A stretch of DNA of 5,304 bases from Candidatus Omnitrophota bacterium. GTDB taxonomy: Bacteria; Omnitrophota; Gorgyraeia; 2-02-FULL-51-18; JAGOUK01. The first letter of the stretch is position 1, and each line of letters starts with the position of its first letter. Positions 1,857 through 5,105 of this stretch are shown here, piece after piece. The position numbers and the translations under genes were made by a program. Where the stretch lies: contig JAGVCY010000291.1 of assembly GCA_020058965.1 (NCBI GenBank), forward strand, positions 1 through 5,304, read 5' to 3'. Under the pieces are notes generated by a model. That model was given only the letters and a program-made list of their open reading frames with translations. It had not been told where the DNA came from and did not search any database.

Positions 1857-1887
1857 ATCCTTCGGCCGCCTACGGCGGCTCCAGGAT
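1857..1887. repeat. REP-like palindrome between xseA and xseB
   Basis: A 31-base hairpin: ATCCT (1857-1861) pairs with AGGAT (1883-1887), a 3x3 internal loop (TCG/TCC) follows, then GCCGCC (1865-1870) pairs with GGCGGC (1874-1879) around a TAC loop. The outer halves, GATCCTTCG and CAGGATGAC, resemble a short intergenic palindrome I recall as dispersed in many bacterial genomes (GTCATCCTGAG...GAAGGATC). That recollection is not verified here. It begins directly after the xseA stop and fills most of the gap to xseB. As RNA it could protect the upstream message from 3' decay or alter xseB translation. There is no T tract after it, so it is not a classical terminator. Only one copy is in the window. 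Confidence 0.72.
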
Positions 1888-1900
1888 GACGGGAAAAAAT

Positions 1901-2158
1901 ATGACACAGAACAAAGAAGCGAAGTTCGAAGATCAGCTTAAGAAGCTCGAAGATATTGTCGGCCGCATGGAAAGCGGCGACCTCACGCTCGACGAGTCGC
2001 TCAAGCTGTATGAGGAAGGCGTCAAGCTGTCACAAAGCTGCACCAAGCGTTTGGAAGAGGCCCAGAAGCGCATCGAAGTGCTTTTGCGCAGCAGTTCCGG
2101 CGAATTGAGCGCGGTGCCAGCGGATGACGATCTCAAACCGAAAAAGCCCAAGAAATAA
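1901..2158 (+). CDS. xseB: Exodeoxyribonuclease VII small subunit
   Basis: Small subunit of exonuclease VII. Several copies bind the helical region of one XseA chain and are needed for stable activity on single-stranded DNA. From this start it has 85 residues, close to the usual ~80. The family core is clear: KFEDQLKKLEDIVGRMESGD (8-27), then LTLDESLKLYEEGVKLSQSC (28-47) and KRLEEAQKRIEVLL (49-62), forming the expected pair of amphipathic helices. A lysine/proline-rich tail (KPKKPKK) ends the protein. An in-frame ATG at 1886 would add MTGKN, but it lies inside the palindrome at 1857-1887 and directly abuts AGG with no spacing, so 1901 is preferred. The ribosome binding site of 1901 is weak (GGGA near 1891), so expression may rely on coupling to xseA. 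It is co-directional with xseA and the synthase gene, as in many bacteria. Confidence 0.93.
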   Translation: MTQNKEAKFEDQLKKLEDIVGRMESGDLTLDESLKLYEEGVKLSQSCTKRLEEAQKRIEVLLRSSSGELSAVPADDDLKPKKPKK

Positions 2159-2167
2159 TTTCATAGA

Positions 2168-3052
2168 GTGCTGAAAAAAATATCTCACGCAGTCCGCTCA
2201 AAAAGTTTCGAATGCGAGGCGCGAGCAACGAAGCAGGCGGAGCTTTTTCAGCGGACTGCTCGGGTGGCGGACCGCGCGCTCGACCGGCTTCTGCCGGCAA
2301 AAAGTCTATACCCGGCGCATTTGGCCGAGGCGATGAGGTATGCGGTTTTTTCGGGCGGAAAGCGCGTGAGGCCATTTTTAGTTTTGCAGGCCGCGCGGGT
2401 GTGCGGCGCAGCTGAATCCAAAGTCCTGCCGTTGGCCGCCGCGATCGAAATGATACACGCGTATTCGCTCGTTCATGATGATCTGCCGGCGATGGATGAC
2501 GACGACTTCCGCCGCGGTCGGAAAACCTGTCACAAGCAATTTGATGAAGCGACGGCGATCTTGGCCGGGGACGCGCTGTTGACGCAGGCATTTTTGGTGT
2601 TGGCGGAGGCGAAAGATGTCGCGGAACCGCGCCGACGGCAGGTGATCGCGGCCGTGGCGCGCGCGTCAGGGGCCTTTGGAATGGTCGGCGGCCAAGCGGC
2701 CGACCTAAAACACCAGAAGAAAAAGGTAAAACTTAAAGAGCTTTCGCGCATCAACGCGCTCAAAACGGGATGCCTGATCACAGTGTCCTGCGAAGCGGCG
2801 GCGCTTTGGGCCGGAGCAGCTCCCGGGGCCGTTAAGCGTCTAAAAAACTATGGCAAAGAAGTGGGTTTTCTCTTTCAGCTGGTGGATGATATCATAGACG
2901 GCGACGGCTATGTCCCCCTTTTGGGCGCGTGCAAAACTTATGAGTTAGCCGCGAAGGTGCGCGATTGCGCCAAAGCCGCGGTTCGGCCGTTTGGCCCCCA
3001 AGCCTCGGAGCTTGAGGCGTTCGCCGATTTTTTGTTCGAACGCAAGGCATGA
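2168..3052 (+). CDS. ispA: Short-chain polyprenyl diphosphate synthase (farnesyl/geranylgeranyl type)
   Basis: Trans-prenyltransferase that condenses isopentenyl diphosphate with allylic diphosphates to make C15 or C20 products in the cytoplasm; the product length cannot be settled here. Visible motifs are GGKRVRP (63-69), the first Asp-rich motif HDDLPAMDDDD (103-113) followed by RRGRKTCHKQF (115-125), AILAGDALL (130-138), GMVGGQAADL (171-180), KTGCLI (199-204) and the second Asp-rich motif FQLVDDIID (236-244). After it the usual loop with a Lys/Asp-rich GK...D...KATY segment is missing: the chain runs GDGYVPLLGACKTYELA to the end, leaving only 50 residues after D244. The GTG at 2168 lies nine bases after xseB and has a poor ribosome binding site. 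Residues 8-31 are encoded by a palindromic repeat (2189-2260), so the N-terminus is suspect. A GTG at 2264 would give a 262-residue form starting just past the repeat. The symbol is by role; an idsA/crtE-type enzyme is possible. Confidence 0.9.
   Translation: MLKKISHAVRSKSFECEARATKQAELFQRTARVADRALDRLLPAKSLYPAHLAEAMRYAVFSGGKRVRPFLVLQAARVCGAAESKVLPLAAAIEMIHAYSLVHDDLPAMDDDDFRRGRKTCHKQFDEATAILAGDALLTQAFLVLAEAKDVAEPRRRQVIAAVARASGAFGMVGGQAADLKHQKKKVKLKELSRINALKTGCLITVSCEAAALWAGAAPGAVKRLKNYGKEVGFLFQLVDDIIDGDGYVPLLGACKTYELAAKVRDCAKAAVRPFGPQASELEAFADFLFERKA
2189..2260 (-). repeat. MITE-like palindromic element, short copy, inside the 5' end of the polyprenyl synthase gene
   Basis: Terminal inverted repeats GCAGTCCGCTCAAAAAG (2189-2205) and CTTTTTCAGCGGACTGC (2243-2259) pair over 17 bases with one C/G exception. 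The reverse complement of 2189-2259 aligns without gaps to the element at 4994-5105, with 61 of 71 positions identical, once that copy's central 37 bases are removed. The inner blocks CTGCTTCGTTGCTC and GCGCCTCGCAT are identical in both. The element occupies exactly 24 codons in the synthase frame and has no stop there. No transposase is encoded, so any movement would need one supplied in trans. No target duplication is evident. Confidence 0.85.
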
Positions 3053-3067: not shown

Positions 3068-4996
3068 ATGACTCCGTTGCTTCCTAACATCAATTCACCC
3101 CTGGACCTGCGCAAGCTGCCCAAAGAAGAGCTGCCGCGTTTGGCCCGTGAGGTTCGCGACTGCATCATCGAGACCGTCTCTGAGAAGGGCGGGCATCTCG
3201 GTGCGGGCCTTGGCGTCACCGATCTCACCATCGCTTTGCACTATGTTTTGAACACCCCCGAAGACTTTTTGGTCTGGGATGTCGGTCATCAGGTGCAGGC
3301 GCACAAAATTCTTACCGGCCGCCGCGATGCTTTTAAAAAATCCTTCCGTCAGTACAAAGGAATCAGCGGGCTCGTGAACAGCGGCGAAAGTCCCTACGAT
3401 GTTTTTACCACCGGTCATGGCGGCCCGTCCATTTCGGCCGCGCTCGGTGTCGCCGTCGCCCGCCGCCGTCAGGGAAAAAACACCAAGGTTGTCGCGGTCA
3501 TCGGAGATACTTCGATCGCCAACGGAATGGCGCTGGAGGCGATGAATCACGCCGGGCATATTCGCGAAAATCTTGTCGTGATTTTGAACGACAATGAAAT
3601 GAGTATTTCCAAATCCGTCGGCGCGATGTCGCGCTACCTCACGCAGCTGATCTCGAATCCCACCTACAATCACCTGCGCGACGAAGTCGAAACGCTGATC
3701 GGCCGTTTTCCCAAGGTCGGCGGCCGCGTGCTTGGAAAGATCAAGTACATCGAAGAGGGCGTGAAACATCTTTTGGTGCCGGGCCAGCTTTTTGAAAATC
3801 TAGGCTTCCGTTATTTTGGTCCGCTCGACGGGCACAATATGGAAAGTATGCTTGATCTGTTTCCGAAGATTTTTTCGATGCAGGGGCCTGTCTTGATCCA
3901 TATTATTACGAAGAAGGGGAAGGGCATGCCGATGGCGGAAGCCGACCCGATCCGCTGGCACGCGTCCGCGCCCTTTGACATGAAAACCGGTGAGCTTAAG
4001 AAAAAATCAACGGAGCTTTCGTACACCGAAGTGTTCGGTCAGACGATGTGCGAGATGGCCGAAGCCGATCCGAACATTGCCGCGCTCACCGGCGGCATGC
4101 CGGACGGCACCGGACTTGTCAAATTCGGCCAGCGGTTTCCCGAGAGATTTTTTGATGTCGGAATTTCGGAAGAGCATGGCATCACTTTTTGCGCCGGGTT
4201 GGCGTACGGCGGAATGCGGCCCTTTGTCACGGTGTACTCCACTTTTTTGCAGAGGGCGTTTGACCAGATCGTTCATGATATCGCGCTTCAGAACTTGCCG
4301 GTTATTTTTGCGATGGACCGCGGCGGCCTGGTCGGCGAAGACGGCCCGACCCATCACGGCGTGCTCGACATTTCGTTTATGCGCAAAATCCCCGGCATGA
4401 CGGTGCTTGCGCCGCGGGACGGCAAGGAATTTGTGCAGATGCTGCATTTTGTGGTCGGGCATACTTCAGGACCGATCGCTCTGCGCTACCCGCGAGGTTC
4501 CGTCACGGAACTGCTTCATCCGGCACTGACCAGTCATGCGACTACTCCGATTGAGCTGGGCAAAGCGGAAGTGCTTCGGGAGGGCTCGGATGTGATGCTG
4601 TTTGGGTACGGCGCGATGGTGGGCCCCGCGCTTGAAGCGGCCGAAGCGCTTGAGCGCGATGGCGTCAGCGCGGGCGTGGTCAATGCCCGTTTTGCCAAGC
4701 CCCTCGATGAGGAATTGATCCTGGCCTGTGCGCAAAAAACCAAACTGATGGTGACACTCGAGGAAGGATGCGTGGCCGGCGGCTACGGATCAGCGGTGTT
4801 GGAAGCGCTGGCCGCGCATCAAGTGACGATCCCGGCGCTCTGCCTGGGAATTCCGGACCGCTTCATCGAACACGGCCCTCGCGCCACACTGCTGGATCTG
4901 TGCGGGCTCTCGCCGCAAAAGATCGTTGAATCGGTTCGTTCCGCGCTTCAGGGGATTTCGCCCTCGCCTGTCAGCTCCGCGTCAGCCGCCCGCTAG
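3068..4996 (+). CDS. dxs: 1-deoxy-D-xylulose-5-phosphate synthase
   Basis: Thiamine diphosphate (TPP) enzyme that joins pyruvate and glyceraldehyde 3-phosphate to give DXP, the first step of the MEP isoprenoid pathway; cytoplasmic. At 642 residues it has the usual length (~620-640). The TPP domain shows GGHLGAGLGVTDLT (41-54), WDVGHQVQAHKILTGRRD (70-87), GHGGPSISAALG (117-128), GDTSIANGMALEAMNHAG (146-163) and LNDNEMSIS (173-181). The pyrimidine domain has the activating Glu in GISEEHGITF (365-374, E368), YSTFLQRAFDQIVHD (390-404), GEDGPTHHG (423-431) and LRYPRGS (472-478). The C-terminal transketolase domain ends with GIPDRFIEHG (594-603). Two cofactor motifs differ from the E. coli forms (GHSSTS, GDGAITAG). 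The ATG follows the synthase stop by 15 bases, with TAAGG at 3059-3063 as ribosome binding site. The stop TAG lies within the terminal repeat of the 4994-5105 element, so the Ser/Ala-rich tail may have been reshaped by its insertion. Confidence 0.97.
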   Translation: MTPLLPNINSPLDLRKLPKEELPRLAREVRDCIIETVSEKGGHLGAGLGVTDLTIALHYVLNTPEDFLVWDVGHQVQAHKILTGRRDAFKKSFRQYKGISGLVNSGESPYDVFTTGHGGPSISAALGVAVARRRQGKNTKVVAVIGDTSIANGMALEAMNHAGHIRENLVVILNDNEMSISKSVGAMSRYLTQLISNPTYNHLRDEVETLIGRFPKVGGRVLGKIKYIEEGVKHLLVPGQLFENLGFRYFGPLDGHNMESMLDLFPKIFSMQGPVLIHIITKKGKGMPMAEADPIRWHASAPFDMKTGELKKKSTELSYTEVFGQTMCEMAEADPNIAALTGGMPDGTGLVKFGQRFPERFFDVGISEEHGITFCAGLAYGGMRPFVTVYSTFLQRAFDQIVHDIALQNLPVIFAMDRGGLVGEDGPTHHGVLDISFMRKIPGMTVLAPRDGKEFVQMLHFVVGHTSGPIALRYPRGSVTELLHPALTSHATTPIELGKAEVLREGSDVMLFGYGAMVGPALEAAEALERDGVSAGVVNARFAKPLDEELILACAQKTKLMVTLEEGCVAGGYGSAVLEALAAHQVTIPALCLGIPDRFIEHGPRATLLDLCGLSPQKIVESVRSALQGISPSPVSSASAAR

Positions 4997-5105
4997 CAGT
5001 CTGCTGAAAAAGCCGCATCTGCTTCGTTGCTCGGGAGCTTATGTAGCTATCGCTACACCGCGCTCCCTCGCGCCTCGCATCCGCGGCTTTTTGAGCAGAC
5101 TGCTA
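4994..5105 (+). repeat. MITE-like palindromic element, long copy, at the 3' end of dxs
   Basis: A 112-base palindrome. TAGCAGTCTGCTGAAAAAGC, extended by CGC (4994-5016), pairs with the end of the element (5083-5105) over 23 bases with a single mismatch. The centre holds GGGAGC (5033-5038) with GCTCCC (5062-5067), and inside that TGTAGC (5042-5047) with GCTACA (5052-5057) around a TATC loop. It matches the reverse complement of 2189-2259 apart from 37 central bases (5033-5069). It begins with the dxs stop codon TAG and is bounded by TA on both sides, which could be a TA target duplication or part of the repeat. It has no coding capacity. As RNA it would fold into a long hairpin that may stabilise the dxs message 3' end, but no free T tract follows. 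Confidence 0.88.

Follow-up and report, generated by a model that had tools for sequence, protein, structure and literature searches.

Results

The locus

The DNA analysed here, which we call the window, is a single contig of 5304 bp (C165) belonging to the draft genome (G000; 1.68 Mb in 307 contigs, 72% complete) of an uncultured bacterium, probably a member of the phylum Omnitrophota; we refer throughout to the sole genome of the same genus as G001 and to a genome of the same family as G002. The genes of the window run in the order antitoxin-like, ParE-like, xseA, xseB, ispA and dxs, and a palindromic element is present in two copies in opposite orientations, copy A and copy B. The following features concern us:

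1886..2158, + strand: xseB (exonuclease VII small subunit), upstream gene; Pfam Exonuc_VII_S, 78.9 bits; stop codon TAA at 2156-2158
2168..3052, + strand: ispA-type farnesyl/geranylgeranyl diphosphate synthase gene; Pfam polyprenyl_synt; 294 aa from GTG 2168
2168..2170, + strand: predicted start codon GTG, 9 nt past the xseB stop
2181..2188, + strand: 8-nt sequence TATCTCAC, also found directly left of the coaB copy (locus L123) when the sequences were compared by eye
2189..2259, - strand: element copy A, short form, 71 nt; covariance model R1, 78 bits on the - strand and 47.5 on the + strand; orientation opposite to copy B
2189..2198, no strand assigned: left arm of the copy A outer stem, 10 bp, GCAGTCCGCT
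2250..2259, no strand assigned: right arm of the copy A outer stem, 10 bp, AGCGGACTGC
2264..2266, + strand: alternative start codon GTG just past the element, at which a database-predicted protein of 262 aa (P0001) begins
3068..4996, + strand: dxs (1-deoxy-D-xylulose-5-phosphate synthase), downstream gene; Pfam DXP_synthase_N
4996..5103, + strand: element copy B, full length, 108 nt; covariance model R1, 115 bits

Copy B overlaps the final base of the dxs stop codon, TAG (4994-5103 for the two together). At the other end of the window lie a small antitoxin-like ORF (104-331; PF09720, 48.8 bits) and a ParE-like ORF (328-639) that scores 20.8 bits against PF05016, under the cut-off of 23; towards its 3' end it may depart from the register of the family, and the ORF is possibly broken.

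The ispA frame scores 278.1 bits against the NCBIfam FPPsyn model, barely above the cut-off of 275, and its product is modelled with a fold like that of solved farnesyl diphosphate synthases (3p41, TM 0.93 by target); the frame is unbroken and the catalytic motifs are present. Copy A, together with base 2260, which the covariance model makes the first base of the flank, encodes residues 8-31. An earlier note on this DNA had described 2189-2260 as 24 codons free of stops, and the ORF at 2168-3052 (+ strand, GTG start) confirms this, but an open frame alone is weak evidence, since for five of the six frames 20-28 of the 49 other copies (the coaB copy included) are likewise free of stops. The arms at 2189-2215 and 2233-2259 are inverted repeats with 81% complementarity, and 2189-2260 folds as RNA at -40.4 kcal/mol (z -5.6). 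Copy A is shortened: it has 71 nt, whereas 50 of the 54 copies measured span 104-109 nt (counted with 10-bp arms). A pattern drawn across the junction of this deletion, searched with up to one mismatch, hits two sites in the genome, copy A itself and a place before rplY; a search for it in G001 and G002 returned nothing. We also considered whether copy A is an RNA family known to Rfam or a terminator, and set both aside: Rfam gave no match in the window up to E 1, and a terminator scan, which accepts loops of 3-8 nt and may for that reason pass over both, found no site at copy A or copy B.

Comparison with relatives

None of 15 aligned relatives, 14 of which cover the N-terminus, carries the 24 residues, and the closest of them read IPGRLAQKARAVDRALDRLLP or similar there. 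Among 69 homologues there are at most 3 identities in 16 over residues 8-23, three proteins have residues in all 24 columns, and ATKQ occurs within the first 60 residues of none of the 120 proteins listed. This alignment is the check that the earlier note had proposed, a search for N-termini free of the insert, and both the 69 homologues and G001 are without the element's residues. G001 possesses the same xseB-ispA junction without the element, with 49 nt from the xseB stop to a shared CGG codon compared with 102 nt here, and its xseA-xseB-ispA-dxs synteny matches the window on both sides. A native segment that reads RLKQSA in G001 and RLAQKA in the relative P0002 is missing from the window's synthase, and so the element has likely replaced about six native ispA codons, the exact boundaries being approximate. 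The expectation that removal of the insert would leave a normal N-terminus therefore fails, as orthologues have about six more residues, of the RLAQKA/RLKQSA type, at this position. Part of the residues ISH may have been imported with the element, because TATCTCAC flanks the coaB copy too.

A dispersed palindromic family

The copy A segment gives 52 BLAST matches in its own genome, a figure in which the two arms of one copy are often counted separately. A covariance model of 107 positions and 32 pairs, built from 44 aligned copies, locates 109 places in 95 sources (53 in G000, 28 in G001, 27 in G011 and one in G003); the stretches searched were chosen around known copies, some places are partial, and the 109 were picked by hand from 202 rows, a palindrome scoring on both strands. 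Covariance searches of whole genomes scored in 13 of 17, and searches across the class scored in 9 of 59 drawn genomes, the window's own being included in either count. The unit is uniform in length, as given above, and 96.4% of pair cells are paired in the 44 copies.

Copies are concentrated at gene 3' ends or tRNAs, which account for 33 of the 53 in G000 (3.8% under random placement) and 22 of the 28 in G001 (4.6%), where adjacency means within -12 to 20 nt, ORFs are of at least 100 aa, and neighbouring genes were taken from a longest-ORF heuristic and not from a gene caller. A tRNA within 20 nt is seen for 15 of 28 copies in G001 (random 1.5%; loci L184-L198 and L257-L264) and for 10 of 53 in G000 (random 0.7%), a weaker preference than that of G001. 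The two genomes apparently share copies at the same site in two cases, L182 2478-2584 with L195 2476-2582 and L130 2447-2553 with L193 2270-2374; one of these pairs has imperfect arms, and shared pairs would represent older insertions that could date the family.

There is no target duplication at the flanks of the 98 places (of 109) taken into this test: the mean flank match is 3.71 against 3.78 in mismatched pairs, and direct repeats of at least 6 nt flank 4 of 98 copies against 4.9% of mismatched pairs. Searches for two transposase families in these incomplete drafts found Y1_Tnp in G002 (two) and G011 (six) and DDE_Tnp_1 in G011 (one), with neither family in G000, G001 or G010; G002 has its two Y1_Tnp genes yet no copies of the element. 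A RAYT (Y1_Tnp) or DDE_Tnp_1 partner was consequently rejected, neither being present in G000 or G001. The earlier note had called the insert a palindromic mobile element, MITE-like, that was absorbed in frame and exapted. Absorption in frame is borne out by a multicopy repeat that lies in frame and is absent from homologues; the benefit implied by 'exapted' is unsupported, and 'MITE-like' sits badly with the absence of target duplication and of Y1_Tnp and DDE_Tnp_1 from this draft genome. The repeat is most likely a selfish or gene-end element.

In-frame copies in other genes

The element is in frame in five of the 53 places in G000, namely in ispA, glmU, a family-2 glycosyltransferase, a protein combining an MBL fold with TPRs (MBL-TPR) and an M1 aminopeptidase, with coaB likely a sixth. 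This count is a lower bound, and other open frames were judged by eye, without orthologue comparison. The four genes besides ispA contain 32-36 element codons each, and their copies, all full length, share one orientation and a 3'-arm frame that ends F-Q-(Q/R). GlmU is assigned by TIGR01173 (448 bits, cut-off 366.85), and its gene reads ATG, 36 element codons and GCC GTA ATT CTC, where G001 has ATG, 6 codons and GCC GTC ATC CTC; the element directly precedes the catalytic AVILAAGAGTRM (LAAGAGTRM), and the in-frame starts ahead of the core are the native ATG and a GTG inside the element, with no others. The N-terminus of the glycosyltransferase consists of MTQNPS, the element and RETISAVLMTRN, and 11 homologues are without the insert. 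Two copies are located mid-protein. In MBL-TPR the element occupies ORF residues 322-356 and is absent from 12 homologues, though the linker there varies in length; the site has 42 codons against 12 in G001, a net gain of 30. In the M1 aminopeptidase 38 codons stand against 7 in G001, a net gain of 31. G001 is without the element at both sites, and in both genes the parts on either side of the element follow each other in the right order and frame as halves of a single protein. To judge from these gene structures, translation through the repeat is hard to avoid.

The coaB copy (PF04127, 181 bits) is likely a further case, albeit a weaker one: the lone ATG, GTG, TTG or CTG ahead of the conserved KLRVLVTCG falls inside the element, yet initiation at a GTG three codons into the core is also conceivable and would leave the protein lacking about two residues of the family models, so that translation of the element is not forced there.

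Several candidates were left out of the count. The copy before rplY is followed by a native start with a ribosome-binding-like AGGAGA, and the batD copy and orphan frames with no Pfam match (L126, L135, L138, L139 and L143) were excluded despite their open frames. Three places in G011 are possible cases, likewise uncounted: L269 (contig C44, 2533-2656), directly before a CbiX-like gene (PF01903) whose possible start codons ahead of the core lie only inside or upstream of the element; L282 (contig C53, 2491-2614), where a prepilin-like gene reads MKNN, element, IKNNRGFTLLEL; and the frame at L275. At L282, 11 of 12 nt are repeated on both sides (ATGAAGAATAAT and ATAAAGAATAAT), and the outer arm, AATAAT/ATTATT, matches the repeated flank sequence. 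Among the 28 places in G001, judged by eye, there was no convincing coding copy.

Discussion

The start codon of ispA and the integrity of the insertion

The observations are best explained by a shortened multicopy repeat that lies in frame in ispA, likely in place of about six native codons, and that is likely translated from GTG 2168; we put the probability of this reading at roughly four in five. Little structure is predicted around GTG 2168 (-1.4 kcal/mol for 2130-2185 and -6.4 for 2150-2200), and the placement of this codon would suit coupled initiation after xseB; the counterpart in G001 starts with TTG, 4 nt past its own xseB stop. The alternative is that translation begins at GTG 2264. 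The element would then form a hairpin, left untranslated, in the interval between the two genes, and the synthase would have lost the start of helix A. The database prediction P0001 adopts this start, and other members of the family do precede plausible native starts at rplY, batD and other genes. Yet 68 of the 69 homologues extend by at least 6 residues (median 12) ahead of the V33 column to which GTG 2264 corresponds, and the codon sits 4 nt behind the -40.4 kcal/mol hairpin. In the AlphaFold model of P0002, helix A spans residues 4-25, equivalent to 20-41 of the window's protein, and by this comparison 13 of its 22 residues would be lost if translation started at V33. The window's protein is itself modelled with a single helix at 2-41 (mean pLDDT 95.7 for the whole), although pLDDT is 75, 78 and 91 for residues 1-10, 11-20 and 21-30, and the helix at residues 1-20 rests on values of 75-78 and few homologous residues. 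The other coding copies point the same way: where GlmU and the glycosyltransferase carry the element at a similar site, no start codon falls between element and core, and recourse to the TTG or ATG within the glycosyltransferase core would cost its first strand; the GTG within the CoaB core would cost about two residues. Inspection by eye found no clear Shine-Dalgarno sequence at either start. We consider initiation at 2264 unlikely, and predict that ispA is probably translated from GTG 2168 and through the element.

It might also be supposed that misassembly at the repeat created the insertion, or that the gene is a pseudogene in decay. With 307 contigs and 72% completeness, the draft invites the former suspicion, as assemblers err at repeats. 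Against these readings stand the agreement in synteny with G001 on both sides of the insertion, the ordered, in-frame joining of the M1 and MBL-TPR halves, and the intact synthase frame with its catalytic motifs. We regard either possibility as highly improbable.

Translation from GTG 2168 would then proceed as follows. Initiation would be coupled to the end of xseB, and moving ribosomes would melt the hairpin of the element. Judging by the structural models, the 3' arm (ATKQAELFQRTAR) would substitute for the first half of helix A, the element-encoded residues 20-31 standing in for it, and the remainder of the element would probably add a helical extension to the synthase. The insertion would be tolerated, and be roughly neutral, because the 3' arm replaces half of helix A and the rest is mere extension. 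More generally, in-frame copies may persist because the element is poor in stops.

Origin of the outer stem

The outer stem differs in sequence from copy to copy and remains complementary. Arms were measured in 54 of 68 places (11 were skipped, and the rest were too short or cut). Over the outermost 10 pairs of these 54 copies (540 cells), 413 cells have the consensus, 107 are changed on both sides with Watson-Crick pairing kept, 4 are changed on both sides and unpaired, and 16 are changed on one side. Over all 32 pairs in 44 of the 54 copies (1406 cells), 216 cells carry changes on both sides and still pair, where shuffles give 56; 9 pair despite a change on a single side (of the G-U type), and 51 are unpaired. 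Measured from the inner arm end, the perfect stem is 10-11 bp long in 31 of 49 copies in G000, 18 of 23 in G001 and 12 of 25 in G011, and the 23 copies from G001 have 22 distinct arms. The sequence of the arms is nearly independent of core ancestry: the two correlate at 0.167 (permutation p 0.056), and in 25 copies with divergent arms these match the arms of the nearest core relative at an identity of 0.48, the background being 0.47. Arms are also inherited, since around copy B the copies most alike in their cores have the same arms. A copy-specific, complementary stem that is nearly independent of the core suggests renewal at the level of DNA.

One means of renewal would be for each insertion to write its own stem, a target stretch of about 10-11 bp being copied in inverted form onto the other side of the element by fold-back or template switching. 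The glycosyltransferase copy has the appearance of such an event: its right arm (AGCGGGAGAC) encodes the native R-E-T, which is RET in 9 of 11 homologues, and its left arm is the exact reverse complement, as if it had been copied from a right arm that looks native. Template switching has also been proposed, in the available portions of PMC8794818 and PMC6649704, as a way to make or keep perfect stems. Against arm copying are the predominance of consensus cells in the arms, the identical arms of the closest core pairs around copy B, and the glmU site, where the G001 sequence does not resemble the arm; at non-coding copies the flanks of empty sites are only 67-85% identical, too diverged to tell which arm is native. 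We therefore offer arm copying as a tentative and rather doubtful mechanism. Complementarity might instead be maintained at the level of RNA, where selection would favour a hairpin (one that ends transcription behind a gene or stabilises the mRNA, for instance), with no copying of arms in DNA. Both the strong covariation and the concentration of copies at gene 3' ends and tRNAs would be expected under such selection, and we think it quite possible, if short of an even chance. It does not readily explain why paired changes are so overwhelmingly two-sided, when selection on RNA would tolerate G-U pairs, or why arms vary nearly independently of the core; the terminator scan was blank at both window copies too, subject to its loop limit. 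Were arm copying correct, a short target stretch would be replaced without duplication, the arms would be perfect and of new sequence, and entry in frame would be possible; such a palindrome would take the sequence of its ends from its target.

Relation to known systems

Palindromic elements of Rickettsia (RPE) were reportedly described by Ogata in 2000 and 2002. Protein-coding palindromes are best known from that genus, with scattered in-frame cases of other repeats, and by the available text of PMC10969869 and PMC2229807 the RPE measure 105-146 bp (or about 150 bp), are in frame in many genes and, in gmk, were shown to be translated in an active product. They are the closest known system to the family described here, both being multicopy palindromes in the range of ~105-150 bp that occur between genes and in frame in unrelated genes with the frame unbroken. 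However, the RPE belong to another lineage and the likeness drawn here is one of structure and placement, for which reason we do not class this family among them; the outer stem here is mostly 10-11 bp, copy-specific and complementary, whereas Rickettsia elements lose repeat identity over time, as the accessible part of PMC6649704 has it. Bacterial MITEs (NEMIS/Correia, ERIC, RUP, QMITE) are similar in size, hairpin structure, adjacency to genes and occasional in-frame fusions (PMC10969869 and PMC2229807, in the portions available), but here there is no target-site duplication, the terminal arms are not constant, and no source insertion sequence appeared among the two transposase families searched (Y1_Tnp, DDE_Tnp_1). 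REP palindromes, associated with RAYT, are found mostly downstream of genes and sometimes inside them, as here, but their units are of 20-40 bp (both points from the part of PMC3733652 at hand) and not 104-109 nt, and Y1_Tnp is absent from G000 and G001. The coding palindromes of nematomorph mitochondria and template-switch hairpins are also reminiscent of this family in that near-perfect inverted repeats are kept in coding sequence, and the available sections of PMC6649704 and PMC8794818 propose template switching as a means of homogenising arms; the mitochondrial palindromes, however, occupy conserved parts of genes, each arm encoding conserved residues, and those sections do not describe them as a dispersed family.

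A literature search of limited scope found no such palindrome family in Omnitrophota. What is new here is the lineage, together with an outer stem that is variable yet complementary (107 paired double changes against 4 unpaired).

Both glmU and ispA are essential in model bacteria. Because the repeat is in frame in ispA and in four or more other genes, its incorporation into functional proteins is likely in this lineage, and an independent case from a distant lineage that strikes glmU and ispA would demonstrate that the conversion of repeat DNA into protein sequence can recur. The empty sites in a genome of the same genus make the cost or benefit of an insertion measurable, while the copy-specific, complementary stem makes the manner in which such elements spread directly testable.
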